In this document: in pieces, positions 7,014 through 27,526 of the stretch
Position numbering within the stretch: position 1 is the stretch's first letter
Layout of the letters: the number at the start of each line of letters is the position of its first letter
Assembly: GCA_001657315.1 (NCBI GenBank)
Contig: LYSV01000080.1
Span: 1-33,019, forward strand
Direction of reading: 5' to 3'
DNA: 33,019 nt
DNA from: Flammeovirgaceae bacterium BBD 1991-12
Lineage (GTDB): Bacteria; Bacteroidota; Bacteroidia; Cytophagales; Cyclobacteriaceae
Program-made: the position numbers and the translations under genes
The notes under the pieces: generated by a model
The model's input: the letters and a program-made list of their open reading frames with translations, nothing else
What the model was told of the DNA's origin: nothing
The model's database searches: none

Positions 7014-10000
7014 ATGCACGAAGTGCTTAAATCATATCTTAAAAGGCTGACCAATCTGTCCGGGAACAACCGCTCACTGATGTTACGTAGGCTGAGCGCT
7101 GACCAGTTCCTTGACCTGTACGCCCTCAACTTCATCACAGAATCCGGGGCGTTCGATATTCTGGAGCATCTCATAGGCGGACGAAAGAAAGTGTTATGCC
7201 CACTCATGGACAGCCGCCATGAAGATACCAATGTGGTCAGCCGTAAATTAAAAAAACTACAACGGGTGGACAGGTTCATACAGGAAGAGCGGGGATCCAA
7301 AGATCTTTATGTGGGCTGGCCTTTCGTAAAGGGTAAGTTCAGCGATGGTACCCCGGCCCGCTGTCCGGTACTCTTTTTTCCGGTAACCCTCGAGCTAAAA
7401 AAGGATCACTGGATGCTGGTTCCCCGTGTGGAGGAGGGGGTCACTTTCAATAAGTCATTCTTCCTGGCTTATTCCCATTACAATGGCATTGCGCTGACCG
7501 ATGACTTTCTGGACCGTACCTTTGAAGATTTTGATGACGACAGTACGGTGTTCCGTACCAGCCTGTATCAACTGCTCAAGGAAAGCCCTGTAGAGATCAA
7601 TTTCAACCAGGAAAACTTTCAGGATGATCTTCACCCCTTCCGGGAATACAAAAAGGCTGAGTTTGAAGATGCTCATGCCAATGGCGAGCTCAAAATGTTC
7701 CCTGAAGCGGTTTTGGGCATATTCCCTCAGGCAGGTTCACAGCTGGTGCCTGATTACATCCGGCTCATAGAGGATAAAAGCATTCAGGATATTGACGATT
7801 TCTTCGCCGCACGAACACTGACCGAACCTGAGGACCATTCCGGTCTGAGGAAGTTCTCCTTTCTGGACACTGTGGACGAGGAAAAGATGATCACACCCTT
7901 CAAAATGGATGCGCATCAGGAAAATGCGTTAAAGGCCATTACAAAAGGGAATTCACTTGTGGTACAGGGCCCACCGGGCACAGGCAAATCCCAGCTTATC
8001 TGTAATCTGATCTCAGACCACGTGGCCCTGGGCAAAAAGGTACTGGTGGTATGCCAAAAAAGGGCAGCCCTGGATGTGGTTTACAACCGGATGCATGAGA
8101 TCGATATGACTGATTTTGTGGGGCTGGTCCATGATTTCAGAAATGACAGGAAGGATATATACAAAAAGATTGCCCGTCAGATTGACCGGATCGACGAATA
8201 TAAGATGAAAAACAATGGGCTGGACAGCATCCAACTGGAAAGAAAGTTTTTGCAGACCAGCCGCAGAATAGATCAAATGACCACGGAGCTGGAGGAATTC
8301 AAGTTTGCCTTGTTTGATGAGTCGGAATGCGGACTGTCGGCCAAGGAGCTTTACCTTACTTCAGATCCTGAAGCTCCTGCCATCAATTTCAAACAGGAGC
8401 ACCCCCGGTTCCGTTTTGAAGATCCTGATGTATTCATCCGAAGGCTCAGGGACTATACTGAATATACCTTACAACACAGTGCTCCGGACTACCCCTGGAA
8501 GGAAAGGCGTTCCTTTACCAATCACGGAGTAACGGAAGAAAGGGCCATTCTTGAAACGCTGGAAGACATACCAGCCTACCAAAACGAGATCGGGGACCGG
8601 CTTGAAGATCAGATCGGTGAAAGGCTTTCGCTGTCTGACTGTGAGTACTTTCTCAGCCGCCGTGACTTTATCATTGAGATGCTCGGTATTCTGAGAAATG
8701 AGCAGGCCTACCGGCTTTTTCAGCATATGGTTTCCTATCCGGACAGTGATACGAGTGTATTGTGGCTGGCCAATATGGAGCGCGTGCTGATGGAATGTTA
8801 CAAAGGGGCCGGACCGGAACTTACCCTTCCTTCTGACATGCTGGGCAAATTCCAGGAGACCCTGCAGCGTAGTATGAACGCCCGCCGTAGCATACTGAAA
8901 CTACTCCACTGGAAGCTGTTCTCAAAGGATAAGCTGTTCATGCGCCGGGTTCTGGCAGACAATCAGCTCAAGAAAAATCGTGAGGGGCTGAATGTGATGG
9001 TGGAAAAAATAGACAACCGCCTGAACCTTGAACACAACGTCACCAAGCTACGCAGCATAGACTGGATCACTGAGATACCTGAACGCTACGAAAAGGTGCA
9101 CTTCCAAAACTGGTTCTACATTATGAAGCTGTCCGTAAAGGCCAAGCTCATCTTTAACGCTCTTCGCAATTTCAGGGAGTTCTTCAATGTGCAAAAGCTG
9201 ACTTTTATTGAGTTCAGGGATAAGCTGGAGCACATTTATATGCTCATCAAGGATATTCCCGACCGCAAGAACCAATGGCTGATCTATCTTACCGAAGGGC
9301 AGATCGCCAAGCTGATCGAAAACCCAGGCAGGCTGGATGAGATGAAGAGTACGCTGAGGAGAGATTTTGAATCACTCTGTGAATATGACAAGCTACAGGA
9401 AGAGATGCTGGCTCACGAGCTGCAGGCCGCGGACAAGGTACTGGATGAGCTGCCGGACGCCACACCGGACAAGGTGGAAGAACTTTTTCAGAATAGTCTG
9501 AGACTGGCATGGATAGAACATATCGAAACAAAATATCCGATACTCAGGTCAGTTTCTTCCAACAAGTTCATGAAAACCGTGGTAGAGTTACAGAACTGTG
9601 TACGTGAAAAGATGCAGATCAGCAACGAGATGCTTCTGCTGAGGGCCCGTGAGAGAACCTATGAGAACGCCGAATACAACAGGCTGAACAATATGGTGAC
9701 CTACCGTGATCTGTATCATCAGACTACCAAAAAGAAACGCGTCTGGCCTTTGCGCAAACTGATAGCAGCGCACTATGAGGAGCTGTTTGACCTTATGCCC
9801 TGCTGGATGGCCTCGCCTGAGTCCGTATCTGCCATATTCCCGATGCAAACCATGTTTGATCTTGTGATCTTTGATGAGGCCTCACAATGTTTCGTGGAAA
9901 GGGGGATCCCTGCCATGTACCGCGGCAGGCAACTGCTGGTAGCGGGAGACGACAAGCAGCTCAGGCCAAGCGACCTTTACCAGGTGCGGTTTGACGATGA

Positions 10001-11054
10001 AGCAGACAAGGATATTCCTGCCCTGGAGCTGGACTCCTTACTGGAGCTGGCCCATCAGCATCTGATGTCCGTACAGCTCAAGGGGCACTACAGGAGCAAA
10101 TCGCTGGACCTGATCGATTTCTCCAATCAACATTTTTATGAAGGTAACCTCAGGCTTTTACCGGACTATGAAGTGGTCAACAATGCTGAACCAGCCATCG
10201 AGTACCTAAAGGTTAACGGTGTATGGGAAAACAATATCAATAAAAAAGAGGCTCAAAAGGTGGTAAGCCTGATGATGGATATCCTGGACAGGGAGCCCGG
10301 CAAGGAAGTAGGCGTGGTAACTTTCAACGCCCGCCAACAACAGCACATTCTCGACCTGCTTGATGAAGAGATCATGGCATCAGGTCGGATCCTGCCTGAC
10401 AACTGGTTTGTAAAAAACATTGAAAACGTACAGGGAGATGAAAAGGATATTATCATATTTTCTACAGCCTACGCTCCGGATCCAAAGGGAAAAATGATCA
10501 TGCAGTTCGGCAGCCTGAATGCTGCAAATGGTGAGAACAGGTTAAATGTAGCGGTAACACGTGCCCGTGAGAAGATCATACTGATCACCAGTATCAAACC
10601 ACAGGAGCTAAAAGTAGAAGAATCTAAAAATGAAGGGCCACGTCTATTGAAAAAGTACCTGGAATATGCACTGGAGGTATCAAAAGGAAGATTTAAGCCC
10701 TGCCCGGCCACACCTGCGAAGCATCACGCCGACTGGTATCTTAAAAACCAGCTCCAGCATTGGTCAGCAGATCACTTTGATGCGTTCACCTTTATTGAGG
10801 AACTACCTTTTTCCGACATTACTATTAAAAACAGCGAGGGTTATATTGGACTCATCCTTACAGATGATGACCTCTATTATCAAAGTCAGTCGGTTAAAGA
10901 TGCCCACGTGTACACTCCATTTACGTTGAGTAAAAAGAGCTGGAATTTTACCGGTGTTTTCAGCCGTGAATTCTGGAACAACCGCGAAACTGTAAAGGAA
11001 AGTCTGGTAAGGTTTGTAAATCATCACACACGGACGGAGAGTTCGAAGTTGTAG
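7014..11054 (+). CDS. Large superfamily 1 (UPF1-like) helicase/AAA protein
   Basis: A 1346-residue ATP-dependent helicase-like protein. The N-terminus (MHEVLKSYLKRLTNLSGNNR) resembles the DUF4011 region of such proteins. Walker A is GPPGTGKS at residues 319-326, followed by a motif Ia-like KVLVVCQKRAALDVVY. After a long helical insertion come Walker B DEAS (954-957), motif III LLVAGDDKQLRPSD, motif IV-like VGVVTFNARQQQ, motif V NVQGDEKDIIIFSTAY and motif VI LNVAVTRAREKI. The last 100 residues resemble the nuclease-like C-terminal domain of related helicases (SWNFTGVFSREFWNN), but clear catalytic acids are not obvious. It is likely cytosolic and may act in DNA repair or defence; the substrate is unknown. 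It is transcribed alone. Confidence 0.85.
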   Translation: MHEVLKSYLKRLTNLSGNNRSLMLRRLSADQFLDLYALNFITESGAFDILEHLIGGRKKVLCPLMDSRHEDTNVVSRKLKKLQRVDRFIQEERGSKDLYVGWPFVKGKFSDGTPARCPVLFFPVTLELKKDHWMLVPRVEEGVTFNKSFFLAYSHYNGIALTDDFLDRTFEDFDDDSTVFRTSLYQLLKESPVEINFNQENFQDDLHPFREYKKAEFEDAHANGELKMFPEAVLGIFPQAGSQLVPDYIRLIEDKSIQDIDDFFAARTLTEPEDHSGLRKFSFLDTVDEEKMITPFKMDAHQENALKAITKGNSLVVQGPPGTGKSQLICNLISDHVALGKKVLVVCQKRAALDVVYNRMHEIDMTDFVGLVHDFRNDRKDIYKKIARQIDRIDEYKMKNNGLDSIQLERKFLQTSRRIDQMTTELEEFKFALFDESECGLSAKELYLTSDPEAPAINFKQEHPRFRFEDPDVFIRRLRDYTEYTLQHSAPDYPWKERRSFTNHGVTEERAILETLEDIPAYQNEIGDRLEDQIGERLSLSDCEYFLSRRDFIIEMLGILRNEQAYRLFQHMVSYPDSDTSVLWLANMERVLMECYKGAGPELTLPSDMLGKFQETLQRSMNARRSILKLLHWKLFSKDKLFMRRVLADNQLKKNREGLNVMVEKIDNRLNLEHNVTKLRSIDWITEIPERYEKVHFQNWFYIMKLSVKAKLIFNALRNFREFFNVQKLTFIEFRDKLEHIYMLIKDIPDRKNQWLIYLTEGQIAKLIENPGRLDEMKSTLRRDFESLCEYDKLQEEMLAHELQAADKVLDELPDATPDKVEELFQNSLRLAWIEHIETKYPILRSVSSNKFMKTVVELQNCVREKMQISNEMLLLRARERTYENAEYNRLNNMVTYRDLYHQTTKKKRVWPLRKLIAAHYEELFDLMPCWMASPESVSAIFPMQTMFDLVIFDEASQCFVERGIPAMYRGRQLLVAGDDKQLRPSDLYQVRFDDEADKDIPALELDSLLELAHQHLMSVQLKGHYRSKSLDLIDFSNQHFYEGNLRLLPDYEVVNNAEPAIEYLKVNGVWENNINKKEAQKVVSLMMDILDREPGKEVGVVTFNARQQQHILDLLDEEIMASGRILPDNWFVKNIENVQGDEKDIIIFSTAYAPDPKGKMIMQFGSLNAANGENRLNVAVTRAREKIILITSIKPQELKVEESKNEGPRLLKKYLEYALEVSKGRFKPCPATPAKHHADWYLKNQLQHWSADHFDAFTFIEELPFSDITIKNSEGYIGLILTDDDLYYQSQSVKDAHVYTPFTLSKKSWNFTGVFSREFWNNRETVKESLVRFVNHHTRTESSKL

Positions 11055-18692: not shown

Positions 18693-18766
18693 GGGGAATT
18701 AGCTCAGTTGGCTAGAGCGCTACACTGGCAGTGTAGAGGTCACCGGTTCGAATCCGGTATTCTCCA
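18693..18766 (+). tRNA. tRNA-Ala (anticodon GGC)
   Basis: A complete cloverleaf of 74 bases including the discriminator A. The acceptor stem pairs GGGGAAT with ATTCTCC and contains the G3-U70 wobble that marks alanine tRNAs. The D arm GCTCAGTTGGCTAGAGC, the anticodon stem CTACA/TGTAG with loop CTGGCAG (anticodon GGC), and the T arm CCGGTTCGAATCCGG are all intact. CCA is not encoded (the DNA continues CGAC). It reads GCC and GCU-type alanine codons. Confidence 0.95.
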
Positions 18767-19204
18767 CGACTATTGAAGCACCTGAAATGGTGCTTTTTTA
18801 TTTATCGTCACAGCGAGGCTGGCGTAGCTAGCGGGCAGGTTACGAAGCTGTCCCATCTTGTGTATGATCGAATGTACTCCATTCGCGTTTCTCGACAGGG
18901 GATCGCTTCGCGCCTGGCTGAAATCATACTACGCGTTCGCGATAACGTTGATTTTGATGATTTAAGACACATTTCAACATTTCTTATTCGAACTCAGGCT
19001 TAAAAAAAGAAGAGTCGCCGTTACCTTGAATATTTGATCCAGGGTGGCACGTTAGGCCAGCGCGTCCCGACGGTATGTCGGGACGGTCACCGGTTCGAAT
19101 CCGGTATTCTCCACCAAACGGTAAAAGCGGTTGCAGTACCGTATACCGGATGAAAGGAAGAAATAAATGTTCTGCTCCACTCATCGAGATTCCCTCTTTA
19201 AAAC
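18767..19204. other. Spacer between tRNA-Ala and the Dnd island
   Basis: No real gene is supported. A 76-codon open frame at 18773-19003 reads through what looks like intergenic repeat sequence (CGTCACAGCGAGGC, GATCGCTTCGCGCC). The right part carries a second tRNA-like remnant (19038-19117). After that comes AT-rich spacer up to the small minus-strand gene at 19205. Confidence 0.45.
19038..19117 (+). pseudogene. tRNA-Ala remnant with intact 3' third
   Basis: Bases 19085-19114 repeat 18738-18767 without a mismatch (variable-region end, T arm, acceptor 3' strand), and this copy continues to CCA. The D-arm region is recognisable but decayed (GGCACGTTAGGCCAGCGCG). The anticodon region is a perfect hairpin, GTCCCGAC-GGTAT-GTCGGGAC, similar to that in the copy at 18612. 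The 5' acceptor strand no longer pairs. The repeat resembles an integration-site duplication. Confidence 0.6.
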
Positions 19205-19537: not shown

Positions 19538-19762
19538 ATGGATATGACCGAATTGGGATTGTACTTTGTTAAAAAGTCTATCAGTAAGGCAGCTGTTTCA
19601 AACAGAACAGGGATCAGCAGGTCTCGCCTTAGTGAGTTGACCCTAAATCCCTCGACTCATCTCCGCGCTAAGGAACTCTATCTTATTGCTCTGGCTATAG
19701 ATGTTGATCCTTGTGAGGTACTCAAAGAAATCTACAGAGATATAAAGCTGCTTGAGAAATAG
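19538..19762 (+). CDS. XRE-type helix-turn-helix regulator, first gene of the Dnd operon
   Basis: A 74-residue single-domain DNA-binding protein. The helix-turn-helix is seen in KAAVSNRTGISRSRLSELTL (residues about 18-37), followed by LRAKELYLIALAIDVDPCEV, the usual later helices of Cro/CI-type domains. It is followed after 37 bases by the SufE-like gene in the same direction. In other Dnd systems DndB is the common regulator; none is seen here, so this small protein may take that role. A start at the second ATG (19544) would remove only two residues. Confidence 0.85.
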   Translation: MDMTELGLYFVKKSISKAAVSNRTGISRSRLSELTLNPSTHLRAKELYLIALAIDVDPCEVLKEIYRDIKLLEK

Positions 19763-19799
19763 GTTCGGACACTTCGGCAACTATCATAAATAAGAGATT

Positions 19800-20222
19800 A
19801 TGGAAGACATAATAACCGTTCAAAAGGAAATAATTGAAAATTTCCAATTATTTGAGGAATGGGATGATAAATATGAATATCTTTTGGAATTCAGTAAGGG
19901 AACAGAACTTCTGACTGAAGCCGAAAAGTCAGAAAATAACCTGGTCAGAGGTTGCCAGTCGAGGGTTTGGCTGGTAAGTGAGTTTCACGATGAACGAGTG
20001 TGGTATCGAAGCGATAGTGATGCACCAATTCCTAAAGGAATTGTAGCTGTGTTGGCAAAGATTCTTTCAGGGCAAAAGCCAGAGACTATTGTGAAAGCAG
20101 ATGTAAGCTTTCATCATAAGACAGGTCTAGTAATGTATTTGTCACCTGCCAGAGTTAAAGGAGTTGAGTCAATGATTTTGAAGTTCAAGTCTCTGGCGGC
20201 TGAACATTTAATAAAACACTAA
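19800..20222 (+). CDS. SufE-like sulfur acceptor linked to the Dnd operon
   Basis: A 140-residue SufE family protein. SufE proteins take a persulfide from a cysteine desulfurase and hand it on. The acceptor cysteine is Cys52 in NLVRGCQSRVWLVSE, matching the GCQSxVW motif of the family. Other family marks are FEEWDDKYEYLLEFSKG and LSPARVKGVESMI. It overlaps dndC by one base (TAATG), so the two are translationally coupled. No DndA desulfurase is in the window. The simplest reading is that a chromosomal SufS/IscS loads this protein, which then supplies DndC. Confidence 0.9.
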   Translation: MEDIITVQKEIIENFQLFEEWDDKYEYLLEFSKGTELLTEAEKSENNLVRGCQSRVWLVSEFHDERVWYRSDSDAPIPKGIVAVLAKILSGQKPETIVKADVSFHHKTGLVMYLSPARVKGVESMILKFKSLAAEHLIKH

Positions 20223-21544
20223 TGTCAAGAAAAATTAACCACATCGTAGATGAAATAATTGACCAGTATTTGTATGCAGATGAAACTGACAGACCATGGA
20301 TCATAGGTTTTAGTGGCGGTAAGGACTCTACAGTGTTGTTGCAATTGGTTTGGAAGGCAATTGAGCAAGTAAAGGAGTTGTCGGGTTTTGCAAGACCGGT
20401 TCATGTGGTGTGTAACGATACAATGGTGGAAAACCCCATCATCACCAACTATGTAAATAAGGTTCTTGATAAAATTGACGTGGCTGCCCGTGATCAGGAC
20501 ATGCCAATTTATGTAAAAAAAACCCAACCAAGGCTGGAAGATTCGTTTTGGGTAAATCTAATTGGCCGAGGCTACCCGGCTCCGAACAATTCATTTCGCT
20601 GGTGTACGGAGCGATTGAAGGTGAGACCTACTTCACGCTTTATCCTTGAGCAACTGGATATTACAGGTGAAGCTATCATTTTATTGGGAACACGGTCGGA
20701 TGAGAGCGCTACACGCGCTAAGTCGATTAAAAAACACGCTGTTCGAGGTAAACGAATTACAAAGCATCCAAACCATCAAAACACCTTTATTTATGCTCCC
20801 ATTAAGCATCTGACGATGGAAGAAGTTTGGTACATTATTAATACCATGCCTTCTCCATGGGGAGCTGACAATGAGGAGTTGTTTCAGATTTACGCAGATG
20901 CCAGTGCAGATGATTATGAGTGCCCCACAATGGTGACAAACAAAAATCACTCTTCTTGCGGACAAAGTCGCTTTGGATGCTGGGTATGCACGGTGGTGAA
21001 GGAAGACAAGTCCATGTCGGCATTGATTGACAATGGAATTACCTGGTTAGCTCCATTGCTGAGGTACAGAAACGAGGTGGTTGAAGGCCGAAACAAGGTG
21101 GGAAACCGCATGGATGAGAGGCGAAATGGTCAGAAAGTCGAGAAGGGCAAAGGTACTTATGAACCACACTATCGGGCAGAGTTATTGAAAAGATTGTTGG
21201 AAACGCAGCGCGAGATCCAGGAAACCTTTCCTGAACTGGAACTAATTACCAACCAGGAACTGGTTGCTATTCAGGTAATTTGGTATCGTGATGCCTTGTT
21301 CAAACAGAAAGTGTCTCACATCTACAATTCCGTCTATCACAAAGATTTCGATATGAAAAATCATGATGAGAATTTCCGAAAAGAAGAAGAATTACTCAAA
21401 AAAGTGTGCGAAAAAGAGAAGGAGTTTGATTTGATTCAAGACCATCTGGCCTTAATTAAAAATAAGGCGCTATTAACAAGAAAACGAGGACTGAGAGAGG
21501 ACCTGGAAAGACGGATTGAACAATATATCAACCAGCAAGACTAG
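20222..21544 (+). CDS. dndC: DNA phosphorothioation sulfurtransferase DndC
   Basis: A 440-residue member of the PAPS-reductase-like ATP pyrophosphatase family. The PP-loop is SGGKDS at residues 31-36. FRWCTERLKVRP with Cys128 follows, then LLGTRSDESATRA, a DndC hallmark. A cysteine cluster (Cys234, Cys246, Cys253, Cys256 in ECPTM and CGQSRFGCWVCTVV) is suited to an iron-sulfur cluster. DndC activates the DNA backbone with ATP and takes part in sulfur transfer. The C-terminal 130 residues are charged and helical. The gene starts inside the SufE stop and ends two bases before dndD. Confidence 0.95.
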   Translation: MSRKINHIVDEIIDQYLYADETDRPWIIGFSGGKDSTVLLQLVWKAIEQVKELSGFARPVHVVCNDTMVENPIITNYVNKVLDKIDVAARDQDMPIYVKKTQPRLEDSFWVNLIGRGYPAPNNSFRWCTERLKVRPTSRFILEQLDITGEAIILLGTRSDESATRAKSIKKHAVRGKRITKHPNHQNTFIYAPIKHLTMEEVWYIINTMPSPWGADNEELFQIYADASADDYECPTMVTNKNHSSCGQSRFGCWVCTVVKEDKSMSALIDNGITWLAPLLRYRNEVVEGRNKVGNRMDERRNGQKVEKGKGTYEPHYRAELLKRLLETQREIQETFPELELITNQELVAIQVIWYRDALFKQKVSHIYNSVYHKDFDMKNHDENFRKEEELLKKVCEKEKEFDLIQDHLALIKNKALLTRKRGLREDLERRIEQYINQQD

Positions 21545-21546
21545 GC

Positions 21547-23675
21547 ATGTTCATTAAAGAAATCGTACTTGACAATTTCAGAATTTACAAGGGACAAAAC
21601 AGGGTCGAACTATTACCGGATGGTGAGCGAAATATTATTGTAGTTAGTGGTAAAAACGGCTTTGGGAAAACTACTTTTTTGATGTCGCTGGTATGGTGTC
21701 TTTATGGCCGCCAGATGGACAAGGTAGATGAACTTTACAAGAAAGAAATTGAGGATAAGGGAAACTATGGCAAGTATATTGGTAATAGCCTGAACAGGCT
21801 GGCTGAAGCGGACGGTAAAACAAGGTTTTCAGTGTCGGTGACATTCACTGACGTAAAGATTCCTGATATCACTTGCAATGAAGTGACTATCAGACGCTCG
21901 TTCGACACCAAAACCGGCACCAAAGATGAACTTGAAATTCTGATAGATAACCAGCAAAATCAGATCATACAAGACTTATCTCAAAACAATCAAGACGGGG
22001 GGGAGATTTTCATTAGGGAATTCATTTTGCCACTGGAAATAGCAAAATTTTTCTTTTTCGATGCAGAAAAAATTGTATCGCTGGCTGAAGTGAATTCTTC
22101 TGAACAACGCAGGGCGTTGGGCATAGCATATTCACAAGTGTTGGGCATCCACAAGTATGAAGAGCTAAAGGAACAGTTACTGAACATTCAGGATGACTAC
22201 CGAAAGAATGCTGCGAAGCCTGCAGATAGAAAGGCGTTTGTGAGCAATGAAAGCCATATTGAGCAACTGAATATTGATATTGAAGATAACCTGGGAAAGA
22301 TTTCCGTACTCAGGGAGAAAAAGAGCGAGCTGAAGTACGAGTCAGATCAAATTCAACGCATACTCATCAGTGCGGGTGATCACATGACTTCAGAACAGGT
22401 AGAACAACTTCAGGCAAAAGAAGCTGAATTGGAAGGCGAAATTGGAAAGTTGCAAAACGGATTGAAGGAATTGTTTAATTTGATCCCCTTTGGCTTAGCA
22501 GGTGGTACAATGATGGAACTGTCCAAACAACTCTCAAATGAGCGTATCCACTCTCAAAACGAATATAGGGAAGGCGATGTGGAAAACAAAACAGACTTAT
22601 TTTTGAACGACCTGGATCGTGTAAAGAATGAATCGAACATTGTAGTCGATACTAAAGTAAGACGATTCTATGAAGACAAAATCCGGGACTTGATCCGAAA
22701 ACATTTTTTTGCTGATATTACCAACTTGCCAACAGATTTTGAGCCTTTGCATGATTTTTCTGAATTACAGACCAATGAGCTGAATGGAATCATTGATAAT
22801 TTGCGACACTCGTTTAAGGATAATTTTAAACGAATCAATCAGCACTATGCCAATGTAAAATCTGAATTGGAAGGTGTACGTAGGCAACTACGAGAAGCAG
22901 AGAGACATGCAGATGACTCATACATAGCTGATCAGAGAGACAAGAAAAAGACAATAGATACACAACTGAGCGATACCGAATTTCAACTGGACGAATTGAA
23001 CCAGAAACTGGGCGAAATCAGAAATGAGTTAAAGGCCTACAAACAAAAACAGGAGGAACTAAGAAAGAGAATTGATGTTTCTGATGAAAACAAGTTAAAA
23101 AGCGATGTGATAGAAACAGAAATCAAGCGCCTGAAAGAATTCATACTTGAGTTCAAGGAAGCCAAGAAGAAATCGCTGGAACAGAAGATAAAGACCGGGC
23201 TAAATACATTGATGCATAAAAAAGACTTTATTCATCGCGTGGAGGTAGATATCAGTATATCGGGCGAAGATGTAGAGATCAGCCTTTACACTAAGGTCAG
23301 TAGCCAGGAACAAAAACTGGATAAAGGCTCCCTTTCAATGGAGAACGTCAAATGTATTCTTCCGCACTGCTGAGTGCATTGGTAGACGAATCTAATATTG
23401 ACTTTCCGGTATTCATCGATAGCCCGATGCAAAAGTTTGATCAGGAGCATGCCGAAAACATCATCCGCCATTTTTACCCAACTGTTTCAGATCAGGTGGT
23501 TCTTTTCCCATTAATTCATAAAGAACTCACACAAGATGAGTATAAAGTACTGAAAGAGCGGGTAAACCGTAGTTTCCTGATTGACAACTTAACCAAGGAC
23601 AGTTCAGCCTTTTTAGAAGTAGCACCCGAATTGTTGATTCAGAAATATGACGAACTCTACATGGCATCAAATTAA
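21547..23675 (+). pseudogene. dndD: DndD SMC/Rad50-like ATPase, frameshifted
   Basis: The DndD ATPase of the phosphorothioation system, which would be about 709 residues if in one frame. The N-terminus has FIKEIVLDNFRIYKGQ and Walker A GKNGFGKT (35-42), then a FIREFILPLEIAKFFFFDAE segment and long coiled coils. The frame ends early at 23373. The other frame continues from about 23340 with GERQMYSSALLSALVDE and the Walker B region FPVFIDSPMQKFD. Adding one G to the GG at 23340-23341 restores LSMGERQ, the ABC signature motif. The break would remove Walker B and kill ATPase activity. It may be a sequencing error, since the rest reads as intact. The second fragment alone starts at 23352. Confidence 0.9.
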
Positions 23676-25245
23676 CATCAAAACCACTGAGGCCAACAAA
23701 GAAGTGGTTCAGAAACTATCGCGTAAAATTTTGGGCGGAGCTTCTGAAAATGTAATTGCGCGTATCGCTTTAGGCTATTCATTGCAAAGCGGGAAAAAGT
23801 TTACAACAGCAGAGTTTACTGATAAGAAATATGATTCCAAAGGAAAAGAATATAAAGATCATGTGCTCTTTGAGGCTCAATACCGGTATTATTTCATTGC
23901 TTTGATTTGCCAGCACTATGAAATTCACAAGACCAATGATAACATTCCCAAATACATTAAGTTGCACATTGACCATGGCCTAGAAGCCATCAATCAGCTT
24001 TTTGAGGACAACCCAAAATATACTATTTTCGATTTCCTAACAGATCACCTCGAAAGGGGAATAGCACATTTGGAAAATGTGGAGGTGAGTCTTGGTCCAG
24101 TCAAAAACAACAGTCAGAAAATACAGAAAGGCTTCTTTGCTTCTGCCATTGAAATTCAAGTCGGGCATGAAATAGAGAATGAAAAATCTACAATTCATCT
24201 TACTCCTAATGATGTAAAAAAGTATAATAATTGTCACATAGCCGTTGCAGGCAATTCGGGCACTGGAAAGACACAATTTGCTCTGGAGTTGTTATCGCAA
24301 TTCACTAAAAAATCCAATGGCCAGGTTAATTTCATTTATCTCGATTTTAAGGGCTTAAAAGATGATGATCTAACCTACTATGAGCCCTTTTTCAAAAGCG
24401 CCAGGTCTACATTCATAGATGCACCACAAACGCCCTTCCCGTTGAATCCACTCACGTTCATTGATAATGTGAACGAGAAAAACAAGATCATGGGTATTAA
24501 CAAATTCGTTGATATCATTGCCAAATACGCCAACATTGGCAAAAAGCAGGAACAAAGCCTGAAGGATGCAACTAAGGAAGCCTTTCTTGAAAAGAAAAGC
24601 GGAGAATACCCTACCGTAAATGATGTAAATGAAAAGCTTCTGGAAATCTATGGAGACAAGAAAGATACCCTTACCGAAGTGATGGAGGGGCTAAGTGAAT
24701 TGGATGTGTTTGACAAGAAACCAAAGGGTAGTTTTCTTAATAAAAATTATTACCTGTCCCTTTCCGGAGATTTACCAAATTCGGTTCGCTTCACTTCTAT
24801 TTTCCTTATCATCAACTACATATACAATACTTTCATGAACATGGAAAACACCCCCGTGGAAAATGGTTTTCAGGGGATTCGCTATGTGTTATTGATTGAT
24901 GAGGCACATGTGATTTTTAAAGAAAAGAAATCCCAGGACCTCCTCGAAAAAATACTCAGAGAAATTCGGTCTAAAGGAGTCTCAGTAGTTTTACTCTCCC
25001 AAGGAATCGAAGAGTTTAACCAGCCGAGCTTTGACTTTTCGACTATGTGTGAAATCGCTTTTTTGTTGGACATCAAGAACAAAGGTAATGTAAAGATGAT
25101 CAACAAATTCCTTGGATTGGGTGACGCTGAAGGCCGTAAAGTAGCACGCAGTATGGAAGGCATTCAAAAGGGGCAGGCTATTTCTAATATCAAAGAGTAT
25201 GAAATGGGGCAGTTGTTTGAGTTGAAACAATTTAAGGATAATTAA
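23647..25245 (+). CDS. dndE: DndE fused to a HerA/VirD4-like ATPase
   Basis: A 532-residue fusion. Residues 1-130 are DndE-like: KLSRKILGGASENVIARIAL, then YDSKGKEYKDHVLFEAQYRY and IPKYIKLHIDHGLEAINQLF. DndE binds nicked DNA in the modification complex and is normally only about 110-120 residues. The rest is a P-loop ATPase: Walker A GNSGTGKT at 202-209, IYLDFKGL, an FPLNPL segment typical of HerA/VirD4-type proteins, and Walker B LLIDEAHVIF with Asp418-Glu419, then the motif VSVVLLSQGIEEF. The start overlaps the end of dndD by 29 bases. The ATPase part may move DNA or act as the translocating partner. Names used elsewhere for such fusions vary. Confidence 0.85.
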   Translation: MTNSTWHQINIKTTEANKEVVQKLSRKILGGASENVIARIALGYSLQSGKKFTTAEFTDKKYDSKGKEYKDHVLFEAQYRYYFIALICQHYEIHKTNDNIPKYIKLHIDHGLEAINQLFEDNPKYTIFDFLTDHLERGIAHLENVEVSLGPVKNNSQKIQKGFFASAIEIQVGHEIENEKSTIHLTPNDVKKYNNCHIAVAGNSGTGKTQFALELLSQFTKKSNGQVNFIYLDFKGLKDDDLTYYEPFFKSARSTFIDAPQTPFPLNPLTFIDNVNEKNKIMGINKFVDIIAKYANIGKKQEQSLKDATKEAFLEKKSGEYPTVNDVNEKLLEIYGDKKDTLTEVMEGLSELDVFDKKPKGSFLNKNYYLSLSGDLPNSVRFTSIFLIINYIYNTFMNMENTPVENGFQGIRYVLLIDEAHVIFKEKKSQDLLEKILREIRSKGVSVVLLSQGIEEFNQPSFDFSTMCEIAFLLDIKNKGNVKMINKFLGLGDAEGRKVARSMEGIQKGQAISNIKEYEMGQLFELKQFKDN

Positions 25246-25256
25246 AATCATAAGAT

Positions 25257-26597
25257 ATGTCTGGACGAATTAATGGCAATCCAACCAAATTATTTTTCAT
25301 TAAAATGATTACACGAGACATCTCTACTCGTGACGCCATTCTAGACCTTCTGGATAACTCTATTGATGGCGCCAGTAGGATTAACAAAAATGACTACACA
25401 GGCCTTTGGATCAAAATTACCCTCAACGAAAATGAGATGATCATAGAAGATAATTGTGGGGGTTTCTCCCTAGATATAGCCAAGAAATATGCTTTTCGGT
25501 TTGGTCGCCCTGAAGAAGCAGACTCTCTGGGAGGTACTATTGGGCGCTTTGGTGTTGGAATGAAGAGGGCTCTTTTTAAAATGGGAATTCAGTTTGAGGT
25601 AGAATCACAAACTGATAATGATCATTTTCAAATTGATGTGGATGTCAATGTATGGAAAGCTGCGGTGGAAGAGGTAGAAAGAAGTGATGGTACAAAAGAA
25701 ACCATTGAAAGCTGGGATTTCCAATATGAGAATATTACAGACAAAACAGCTAATTTGAAATCATCGGGTACATATATAAGAGTCACGAACTTATATCCTG
25801 AAGTTGCAGAATCATTTAGAGACAATGCCTTTTTAAATGCCTTAGAGAATGATATAGAAAAACTACTAAACTTTAGTTTAGAAAAAGGTATAGAAATAAA
25901 ATTTAATGACAAACAGCTTTCCAAAAAGGAGGTATTGATCTTTTCGGAAGATAATGAGCCGTTTGTGGCCACTGGTTCCAAAGATAGTGTAAATTATAAG
26001 GTTCTTGCAGGTCTTGGTAAAACAGGTGAACCAAAAGTCTCTGGGTGGAATGTTTATTGCAATGATCGTTTGGTCCTTGAGGCAAATACGAATGATATTA
26101 CTGGTTGGGGCACCGGTAGTATCCCCCAATTTAACAATGACTATGCCATGTTCAGAGGTATAGTGTTCCTTGATTCTGATGATCCAATCAACCTGCCATT
26201 GACTACAACAAAAAAGGGAGTTGACACAACCTCGGAGGTTTATCGCTTTGTGCTAAATATTATGAAAGAAGGTATGCAAAGTGTTATCACATTCCTTAAA
26301 AGTGTACGCAAACTTGATGACCCTCAAGAATATCGAAAGGCATTGGGCGAGCAGCAAGAAGAGCAAATGGGTGTAGTGGAAATGAAAAATAGGGTCTTTG
26401 AAAATTTAAGAACCTTCGTACCCCCTCCTTTAGACTATGAAAAACTGGCGGTAAAAAAAGATACTGTTCGAATTTCCTTTATTGCCAATCGCAAAAGAGC
26501 AGAGTTTGTAAAGGACTATGAAGGCTCAAAAAGTTACACTCAGTTAGGTGAAAGTCTTTTTGAGTATTATGTCACAATGGAAGAACTCGACATATGA
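25257..26597 (+). CDS. GHKL (HSP90/MutL/MORC-like) ATPase in the Dnd operon
   Basis: A 446-residue protein with a GHKL ATP-binding domain at its N-terminus. The N box is RDAILDLLDNSIDGAS with Asn34 as the Mg-binding residue; the catalytic Glu position is Asp30 here. The G1 box is EDNCGGF (64-70) and the G2 box is GRFGVGMKRALFKMG (96-110). The rest (about 200-446) is not recognised. GHKL ATPases act as ATP-driven clamps, often with a partner nuclease. It lies 11 bases after dndE and overlaps the next gene by 4 bases, so it belongs to the same operon. A restriction or sensing role beside phosphorothioation is inferred from context only. Confidence 0.85.
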   Translation: MSGRINGNPTKLFFIKMITRDISTRDAILDLLDNSIDGASRINKNDYTGLWIKITLNENEMIIEDNCGGFSLDIAKKYAFRFGRPEEADSLGGTIGRFGVGMKRALFKMGIQFEVESQTDNDHFQIDVDVNVWKAAVEEVERSDGTKETIESWDFQYENITDKTANLKSSGTYIRVTNLYPEVAESFRDNAFLNALENDIEKLLNFSLEKGIEIKFNDKQLSKKEVLIFSEDNEPFVATGSKDSVNYKVLAGLGKTGEPKVSGWNVYCNDRLVLEANTNDITGWGTGSIPQFNNDYAMFRGIVFLDSDDPINLPLTTTKKGVDTTSEVYRFVLNIMKEGMQSVITFLKSVRKLDDPQEYRKALGEQQEEQMGVVEMKNRVFENLRTFVPPPLDYEKLAVKKDTVRISFIANRKRAEFVKDYEGSKSYTQLGESLFEYYVTMEELDI

Positions 26598-27526
26598 ATA
26601 GCCCTAATATATTAAATTATGATATCCGTCCTGCAAAGTTTGCAGAACGTAAGATGTTGCTCGCGAGCCTTTTGAATATCTGTAAAAAATATGGGCCCGG
26701 ACACCAATACATTGGTTTCGGAGGGGTTTCTTTTACAGATTTCAAGTTGTTCCATAAAGAGTTGCATATAGATGAAATGTTTAGCATTGAAGGCGGAGAA
26801 AGTATTTCTAAAGAGAGAGTAACTTTTAACTGTCCATATTCTTTCATCAAGTTAAAATTTGGGTTGTCTACTTCACAATTACTTGATATTGATTTATCTA
26901 AAAAATCAATTATTTGGCTTGATTACGATGATGATCTTTCGGATTTTATGTTTGAGGATTTGGAAATTCTTTTTAGAAGGTTGCCTGTTGGAAGTGTATA
27001 TATAATGACTTGCAATCGACAATTGAAAGACAAAGAGAAAGGTAGTCCTTATGATAAAGACACTTTTAAACAAAGGTTTGGAGATTATGTGCCGTTTGAG
27101 CTGAAAAATAAAGACTTAAATGGGGAAAACAACTTCAAGACCATCAGATCAATGCTCTTAAACCTTATTATATCTGTCCTTAACGATAGAAGTAGAGGAG
27201 AGGAAAACTTGTCTTTTTTTCAGCTCTACAATTTCCTTTATCAAGAGCGCGGAGGCGCGAAAATGTACACATTTGGAGGAATCATTGAATCACAAGGTTT
27301 TGATATAAATGATTTGAATTTATCCAATTTTGACTTCGTAAAACTCAATGAAGAACCATACCGTCTAAATGTTCCTCTATTAACCTTAAAAGAAATAGAT
27401 TACATTAATAGAAACTTGGGAAACCATCTAGGTATTCTGCATGCAGGTGTTATTGAAACAAATGAGTACAAGAAATATCTCAAGACATACAAATACTTAC
27501 CAAACTATCTTGATGTTAGGTTGTGA
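26594..27526 (+). CDS. Uncharacterised Rossmann-like protein, last gene of the Dnd operon
   Basis: A 310-residue protein. The opening (LNYDIRPAKFAERKMLLASL, then YIGFGGVSFTDFKLFHKEL, then IDEMFSIEGGE) looks like motif I and strand 2 of a Rossmann-type methyltransferase fold, and IIWLDYDDDLSDFMFEDLEI would fit motif IV. Catalytic residues cannot be assigned with confidence, and another nucleotide-binding activity is possible. It overlaps the GHKL gene by 4 bases (ATGA), a sign of tight coupling. It is markedly AT-rich compared with the genes to its right, which suggests horizontal acquisition. It ends 38 bases before the end of the convergent NlpC/P60 reading frame. Confidence 0.75.
   Translation: MNSPNILNYDIRPAKFAERKMLLASLLNICKKYGPGHQYIGFGGVSFTDFKLFHKELHIDEMFSIEGGESISKERVTFNCPYSFIKLKFGLSTSQLLDIDLSKKSIIWLDYDDDLSDFMFEDLEILFRRLPVGSVYIMTCNRQLKDKEKGSPYDKDTFKQRFGDYVPFELKNKDLNGENNFKTIRSMLLNLIISVLNDRSRGEENLSFFQLYNFLYQERGGAKMYTFGGIIESQGFDINDLNLSNFDFVKLNEEPYRLNVPLLTLKEIDYINRNLGNHLGILHAGVIETNEYKKYLKTYKYLPNYLDVRL

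Follow-up and report, generated by a model that had tools for sequence, protein, structure and literature searches.

The reference point for DNA phosphorothioation is the DndABCDE-DndFGH system, around which several variants have been reported. Fusions of DndE to HerA, and Dnd systems that lack DndFGH, have already been described (Rakesh, Aravind, Krishnan 2024, PMC10853773), and in PbeABCD with DndCDEA, a swapped partner module serves phosphorothioate modification (Xiong 2019, PMC6459918). In another line of work, GHKL+S5 ATPases encoded beside DNA methylases in restriction-modification operons were delineated as the MORC/paraMORC group (Iyer 2008, PMC2292703). Here we describe an operon on contig LYSV01000080.1 of Flammeovirgaceae bacterium BBD 1991-12 (assembly GCA_001657315.1); this 33,019-nucleotide (nt) stretch is referred to as the window. 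Judged by sequence, the operon encodes DndC, DndD and a DndE whose fusion partner is a HerA motor of the DndH type; next comes a tightly coupled pair, a GHKL ATPase and a protein that we call MT35, and across microbes this pair is found with DNA-modification enzymes of differing chemistry. We propose, with a probability of about 0.45 for the explanation as a whole, that the operon is a horizontally acquired, variant phosphorothioate-based defence system, in which the restriction-equivalent is the MORC-like GHKL/MT35 module, probably working without a nuclease.

Seven genes, all on the + strand, were confirmed at 19538-27526, in the order XRE regulator, SufE, DndC, DndD, DndE-HerA, GHKL and MT35. 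The intergenic gaps are 37, -1, 2, 11 and -4 nt, with a 29-nt overlap at DndD/DndE; the largest gap of 37 nt agrees with the first-pass annotation, which had described a single direction with overlaps or gaps under 40 nt. DndC (20222..21544) passes the equivalog-level model TIGR03183 (428.1 bits, cutoff 290.4) and carries the PP-loop SGGKDS and cysteines at 234, 246, 253 and 256. The ABC-type ATPase DndD lies in two frames, a split that the first-pass annotation overlooked. Its N-terminal ~598 residues (21547..23373, +) score 173.4 bits against TIGR03185 and 661 bits against the PADLOC model PDLC02742, and its C-terminal part of 107 residues (23352..23675, +; 56.6 bits, model positions 561-635) aligns to residues 603-709 of the intact DndD of a related locus, L033 (Allomuricauda profundi). 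With the gene split, neither half reaches the TIGR03185 cutoff of 245.85; DndD of the relatives is a single frame of 689-713 residues, and the three intact relatives scored all pass (L030 250.5, L031 281.2, L033 257.6 bits). The break near 23.35 kb is either a broken gene or an assembly error.

The next gene (23647..25245, +) encodes DndE (residues 11-117; PF08870 66.5 bits, cutoff 25) fused to a HerA/FtsK-type translocase ATPase (residues ~157-467) with the Walker A motif GNSGTGKT. The DndE domain scores 36.5 bits against TIGR03184, under the cutoff of 71.85, as do its relatives (L033 35.7, the unfused DndE of L030 62.8). The HerA part is closest to the DndH/DptH motor (PADLOC DndH E 1.3e-24; PDB 7es4, DptH), and the PDB profile matches of the fusion also include the DndE structure 7x4e. 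No second DndE was found in the genome beside this fusion.

Compared with DndABCDE-DndFGH, the operon shares DndC, DndD and DndE in one transcriptional direction, and differs in fusing DndE to a DndH-kind HerA motor, in carrying SufE with no adjacent DndA, and in having GHKL-MT35 where DndFGH would be sought. The genome contains no DndB (0 PF14072 matches) and no separate DndH, since all that the DndH model matches is the HerA domain of this fusion (model positions 1300-1614 of 1678); DndF and DndG were not searched. DndB is not known to be essential. The first-pass annotation, which had called this a variant phosphorothioation operon and found DndA, DndB and DndFGH missing from the window, is therefore borne out across the genome for DndB and DndH, with SufS- and IscS-like genes present elsewhere as discussed below. 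Its presentation of the DndE-ATPase fusion as non-standard does not hold as a novelty, such fusions being published. With those published systems the operon shares a clade-3 HerA/FtsK domain common to DndH beside a DndD-related ABC ATPase, and the terms GHKL, MORC, HSP90 and SufE have no occurrence in the main text of that report (PMC10853773). From PbeABCD it differs in having no PbeA or PbeB among the operon open reading frames (ORFs; all eight were scanned for PbeA) and in a DndD without a CxC motif. The best PADLOC model name for this DndD, PbeC, was accordingly not accepted, since the CxC motif is missing and TIGR03185 fits the three intact relatives.

The partner genes lie directly downstream: the GHKL ATPase, first of the pair (25257..26597, +; HATPase_c_3, PF13589), and MT35, the second (26594..27526, +; PF20553 Methyltransf_35, "Putative O-methyltransferase", 297 bits, cutoff 27). 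Relatives were fetched by the MT35 sequence alone, giving 34 loci from an 84,980-species genome collection and three from viral contigs (loci carry our own L numbers). In 37/37 loci the gene immediately preceding MT35, in the same orientation, is GHKL, with a gap of at most 5 nt in all of them and an overlap in 31, the long overlaps reflecting early start codons chosen by the ORF caller; the GHKL of L051 is in two frames. The same order was seen in three further MT35 loci from a family search, one of which (L027) is the contig of L062. Of 395 genomes from the phylum, four have MT35 and five match the GHKL profile, namely the same four and one in which a fragment lies 77 nt short of the end of its contig. 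From this linkage and these counts, the pair appears close to obligate, and rare. The window's genome has no second GHKL copy.

In the Dnd setting, DndC-DndD-DndE(-HerA)-GHKL-MT35 runs uninterrupted in the window and in eight other loci (L030-L035, L042, L043), which bears out the earlier proposal that the operon has its own partner module. A Mrr-type nuclease gene lies inside the DndC to MT35 core in L040/L048, and PbeA-like and further genes do so in L036, L039, L041 and L044; together with L035, which has one nearby, these last loci combine PbeA-like genes with GHKL-MT35. The pair was not seen at the other DndE-HerA loci L023-L026, in any of the four stretches of 15.6-19.5 kb, one of which (L023) has a DndB-like gene.

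To see what the pair stands beside, 42 loci were counted, comprising the 37, L028, L029 and three from annotated records, with L027 dropped; neighbour families were checked on examples and the remainder by tblastn. The neighbours were DndC in 15 loci, a C5-cytosine methylase in 13 (two inside the defence island system associated with restriction-modification, DISARM) and an N6/N4 methylase in eight. The near-copies L036/L039 and L040/L048 reduce the 15 Dnd loci to about 13 independent ones. A further locus, L072, is a DISARM with a MmeI-type enzyme by annotation; L054 has a DndB-like gene at its contig end; and L037, L038 and L051 end at contig ends, the first two being near-copies of the Dnd loci L036 and L039. 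Modification genes are denser near the pair than far from it (0.109 vs 0.029 per kb), a weak control because the eight far matches are Pbe- or Mrr-containing Dnd operons and DISARM. The statement in the first-pass annotation that other proteins stand in the places of the missing Dnd genes is thus right for the partner module, with the correction that the pair is not specific to Dnd and occurs also with C5, N6/N4 and DISARM methylation systems. The placing of a GHKL ATPase beside DNA methylases is shared with the MORC/paraMORC operons (PMC2292703). In L059, L062 and the Microvirga plasmid L072, GHKL-MT35 lies directly before DrmA and is an addition to DISARM; the window differs from these loci in having no Drm protein, DrmA and DrmB included, among the eight operon ORFs scanned with PADLOC.

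A few loci hold little besides the pair. L056 consists of a methylase and the pair, and its scanned flanks encode a carboxypeptidase, a helix-turn-helix (HTH) protein, CreD and one unknown. The genome of the Pseudomonas filamentous phage PfAC20 (L070 280-3711) opens with genes for GHKL, MT35 and a C5 methylase, and the next gene encodes a 105-residue protein with no Pfam family. Of these three, a published survey took account of the methylase alone, listing it as an incomplete restriction-modification system (PMC11878078); GHKL and MT35 are candidates for the missing half of that system. L064 has a methylase and the pair with a second C5 methylase beside them, and L049 and L050 are apparently also methylase plus pair, on contigs of only 4.8 and 4.7 kb.

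Other arrangements were noted among these loci. In psymA of S. meliloti (L071 4053-7813), MT35 is split into two pieces separated by ~2.8 kb, as though by an insertion, and downstream there is a C5 methylase on the opposite strand. L058 (14-5389) has an NgoMIV-type gene and a C5 methylase just upstream of GHKL-MT35 and a second C5 methylase on the other side. In L047 (6861-14420), a GmrSD-type gene directly precedes GHKL-MT35, and a divergent set of DndE, DndD/PbeC-like and DndC genes follows directly on the opposite strand. Two alphaproteobacterial loci encode a 279-residue protein between MT35 and the C5 methylase (L045 5058-5894, L046 11014-11853); the two proteins are alike by their first residues and have no Pfam family, the L045 copy having been scanned. 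Finally, a near-identical set of Dnd, Pbe, Mrr and GHKL-MT35 genes is found in L036 and L039, and in part in L037 and L038, on contigs labelled Parabacteroides, Bacteroides xylanisolvens, Phocaeicola and Alistipes (L036-L039); downstream genes are alike in L036 and L039, and recent transfer of the set among gut Bacteroidales is likely.

To examine how the module evolved, a tree of 36 GHKL+MT35 pairs was labelled by modification class, and the pairs sort by chemistry. The Dnd pairs form one clade of 13 rows (starred), with only the distant, long-branched L047 apart; the N6/N4 pairs are clustered, and the C5 pairs are spread over several groups (5 changes). Several phyla, one archaeal row of the tree and viral contigs are represented in the C5 and N6/N4 groups. 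For each of the three classes, 0/500 label shuffles were as clustered, a result that must also be held against our proposal, as the shuffles test label clustering only and common descent alone would produce it; the long branch of L047 and 11 rows with odd letter make-up are further caveats of the tree. Within Dnd, monophyly of the DndE-HerA loci is rejected for GHKL+MT35 in the approximately unbiased (AU) test (p 2e-43; 13 loci, with the group set by gene architecture), and core type changes four times on the GHKL+MT35 tree vs once on the DndD tree. Three more AU tests, all rejecting, used groups named after inspection of the trees and are descriptive only. By these sequence comparisons the pair has been exchanged between two kinds of Dnd core. 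A mark-reading module would be expected to show such a pattern, in which it is tuned to its mark and yet passes between machines that produce that mark.

These data bear on a rival explanation, in which the operon would be a standard Dnd system that lies in a defence island, carries passenger genes and a decayed dndD, and has no special partner module. The split of dndD in the assembly, the AT-rich region by a tRNA gene with an att-like repeat and the lack of conservation of SufE beside dndC (both described below) would fit such a history, which we nevertheless hold to be improbable: GHKL-MT35 are adjacent in every one of the 37 loci and stand directly after DndE in eight loci besides the window, and passengers are not expected to retain order, overlap and chemistry-specific clades.

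The two proteins were analyzed by profile, alignment and structure prediction. GHKL profile matches include MORC4/MORC3/MORC2 and topoisomerase VI-B, and its AlphaFold2 (AF2) model, with a predicted local distance difference test score (pLDDT) of 87.4, matches Hsp90/TRAP1 and MORC2 in Foldseek. Residues N34, D65, G69, G96, G99, G101 and K319 are invariant in 32/32 members; the GHKL motifs are therefore intact, and a second domain contains a conserved Lys (K319), which we take to play the role that marks MORC and paraMORC proteins. From sequence and model, GHKL is assigned as a MORC/Hsp90-like protein with predicted ATPase residues intact. The GHKL domain is also weakly like that of MzaB from the MZA system, the PADLOC model matching 10/32 family members; identity with MzaB was rejected, as scores of 22.9-25.1 bits compare with an NCBIfam cut-off of 850.

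The first-pass annotation had called MT35 an unknown Rossmann-like protein; the Rossmann part stands, and the family can now be named as PF20553, which exceeds its gathering score here and is the only Pfam family given for any of the 34/34 aligned members that match it. No PADLOC 2.0.0 model matches any of the 34 members, and no sequence relative was found in the PDB at E up to 1. The AF2 model of MT35 (pLDDT 90.3, predicted template modelling score 0.88) matches mainly class-I S-adenosylmethionine (SAM) methyltransferases and aminopropyltransferases such as spermidine synthase among the 50 PDB matches listed, the best of these being Trm1 (3axs, E 2.4e-8). A G-rich loop (G41 in 33/34 members, G43 in 34/34), an acidic residue after strand 2 (E/D66, 34/34) and D110 (34/34) are conserved, and R12, K15, R19, D49, H54 and N79 are likewise invariant (34/34 each). 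The G-rich loop and the acidic residue, with the predicted structure, place MT35 in the class-I SAM-methyltransferase fold; from general knowledge of this fold, the conserved residues can be read as a putative working SAM pocket. A hidden nuclease was also sought in MT35 and GHKL, and none was recognised by Pfam or among the 50 Foldseek rows listed per protein.

Based on these features, we propose a mechanism in which DndCDE, with the HerA motor travelling on DNA, would mark host DNA with phosphorothioate, and GHKL and MT35 would act as the restriction-equivalent. MT35 would read the target or its modification state, and the GHKL dimer would close on DNA with ATP in the fashion of MORC, so that DNA without the mark would be clamped, compacted or otherwise silenced, not cut. 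Action on unmarked DNA is the simplest reading because the marking enzyme is exchanged while the pair stays, and clamping or silencing is favoured over cutting because no nuclease is recognised in either protein or beside the smallest loci. A block of viral replication with no cutting of DNA has been reported for Pbe systems (PMC6459918), showing that a non-cutting outcome is possible for phosphorothioate systems, and eukaryotic MORC proteins are reported to entrap DNA (PMC8277788).

A plain two-subunit restriction enzyme, cleaving DNA or removing bases through an unrecognised active site, would follow the same restriction-modification logic of the neighbourhoods and could give a role to the six invariant MT35 residues R12 to N79, for which none is assigned. 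We consider it unlikely, since no nuclease profile or fold was found: the 34 MT35 members have PF20553 and no other Pfam family, and no PADLOC model, and neither protein has a nuclease among the 50 Foldseek rows shown. Placing GHKL-MT35 in the marking machinery seems unlikely to a similar degree; there, MT35 would methylate DNA or the modification complex, either following the neighbouring modification enzyme or jointly with it, GHKL would remodel DNA for MT35, and restriction would fall to separate, variable nucleases. The class-I SAM-methyltransferase fold of MT35 with its conserved cofactor-pocket residues suits this explanation, as does the separate nuclease gene in a number of loci (Mrr, YhcG, GmrSD, NgoMIV and PbeA types). 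However, the partner chemistries differ (phosphorothioate, 5-methylcytosine, N6/N4-methyl), so that a second mark common to these systems could depend on none of them, and with no nuclease among the scanned neighbours in L056 and PfAC20 those systems would mark without restricting.

Several observations weigh against the proposed role of the pair as a nuclease-free restriction-equivalent. Nuclease genes accompany it in a number of loci: a Mrr-type gene in L036-L040, L042, L043 and L048, a YhcG-type nuclease directly after MT35 in L031, GmrSD in L047, NgoMIV in L058, and the PbeA helicase-phospholipase D protein in L036, L039, L041, L044 and near L035; these accompanying nucleases, or a host enzyme, could be the cutters. 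MT35 could be a working methyltransferase whose product outweighs its binding, and its Foldseek TM-scores are weak (0.26-0.44 to the query among the 50 listed), leaving activity and ligand unsettled. The 20.8 kb covered at L063 hold the pair and showed no modification gene. Across the evenly sampled 395 genomes of the phylum, DndC (13 genomes) and MT35 (4) co-occur only in the window's own genome; the evidence linking the pair to Dnd therefore comes from the pattern scan, a search biased towards relatives of the query. The split dndD also puts the functioning of this copy in doubt.

The pair found beside different DNA-marking enzymes suggests an overlooked partner in self/non-self defence. No description of a GHKL-MT35 pair was found in the open-licence PMC literature searched, and its place as a shared partner across marking systems may be the new part of these observations. 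A bolder generalisation, which we regard as doubtful, is that GHKL-MT35 forms a restriction-equivalent, so far overlooked and free of any nuclease, that can be combined with phosphorothioate, 5-methylcytosine, N6/N4-methyl and DISARM systems alike, with a MORC-like clamp silencing unmarked DNA and MT35 acting as a mark-tuned, SAM-binding reader. If true, bacteria would possess an equivalent of the way in which eukaryotic MORC proteins entrap DNA, and certain "orphan" or incomplete methylase genes, such as that of PfAC20, would be half of a complete system. Should the pair be the restriction half, one effector would serve four kinds of DNA-marking system, reading of the self-mark would become directly testable by module swaps, PF20553 would gain a function, and DNA clamping by MORC ATPases could be studied in a simple bacterial setting.

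The operon opens with a 74-residue XRE/Cro-type regulator (19538..19762, +; PF13443 HTH_26 26.5 bits, cutoff 22; PF01381 HTH_3 23.1, cutoff 23), followed by the SufE-like sulfur-transfer protein (19800..20222, +; PF02657 130.6 bits) with a cysteine motif at residue 51, GCQSxVW, which we take to be that of SufE. A dedicated DndA cysteine desulfurase is missing among the operon ORFs, SufE being there instead. The genome encodes a second SufE on contig C32, beside a SufS-like gene, and the operon SufE shares 35% identity with it; an IscS-like gene is also encoded elsewhere. These desulfurase names are our assignments from an Aminotran_5 match and context. Sulfur would pass from L-cysteine to a chromosomal cysteine desulfurase (SufS- or IscS-like), then to the operon SufE and on to DndC, SufE in this way presumably standing in for DndA.

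SufE was found beside dndC in 0/12 other DndC loci from the 395 phylum genomes (~1.5 kb flanks), and in none of the other fetched Dnd loci, of which those cut close to dndC cannot tell. SufE as a general Dnd partner was thus rejected for the loci seen. XRE-like genes lie upstream in some relatives only (L030, L042; judged by eye, with no profile scan). Conservation of the whole seven-gene set, which the first-pass annotation had set as a check, fails, because SufE is unlinked to dndC in the relatives checked. Elsewhere a desulfurase can lie close to DndC: an IscS-like gene immediately precedes it in L082, one of the 12 loci, and in L042 and L043 an IscS/DndA-like gene follows at a short distance, the L042 protein scoring below every NCBIfam cut-off among the matches listed (DndA 434 vs 480, IscS 489 vs 548). 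Replacement of DndA by SufE, with SufE feeding DndC, would then be a local feature of this operon; no paper tying SufE to Dnd was found in the literature searched.

The window is one entire contig (C63) of an 8.59-Mb genome in 282 contigs that is 99.92% complete. The G+C content of the operon is 0.388, compared with 0.448 for the window outside 18.6-28.1 kb. A tRNA-Ala(GGC) gene (18693..18767, +; ARAGORN) is the likely integration site of the region, and the operon starts ~770 nt past it. Between them, an exact 30-nt direct repeat of the tRNA-Ala 3' end (19085..19114, +) is likely an attachment-site scar; for the last 23 nt of that end, 0 matches are expected in shuffles, and the window contains no third copy. 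The region is thus AT-rich and placed beside a tRNA gene with an att-like repeat, as is usual for islands.

Farther upstream in the window, a 1346-residue superfamily 1-type helicase is encoded at 7014-11054 (+), with a DUF4011 match and a weak, below-cut-off REase_MTES_1575 match at its C-terminus. By these matches it looks like a further, separate defence gene, presumably resembling the Hhe type.

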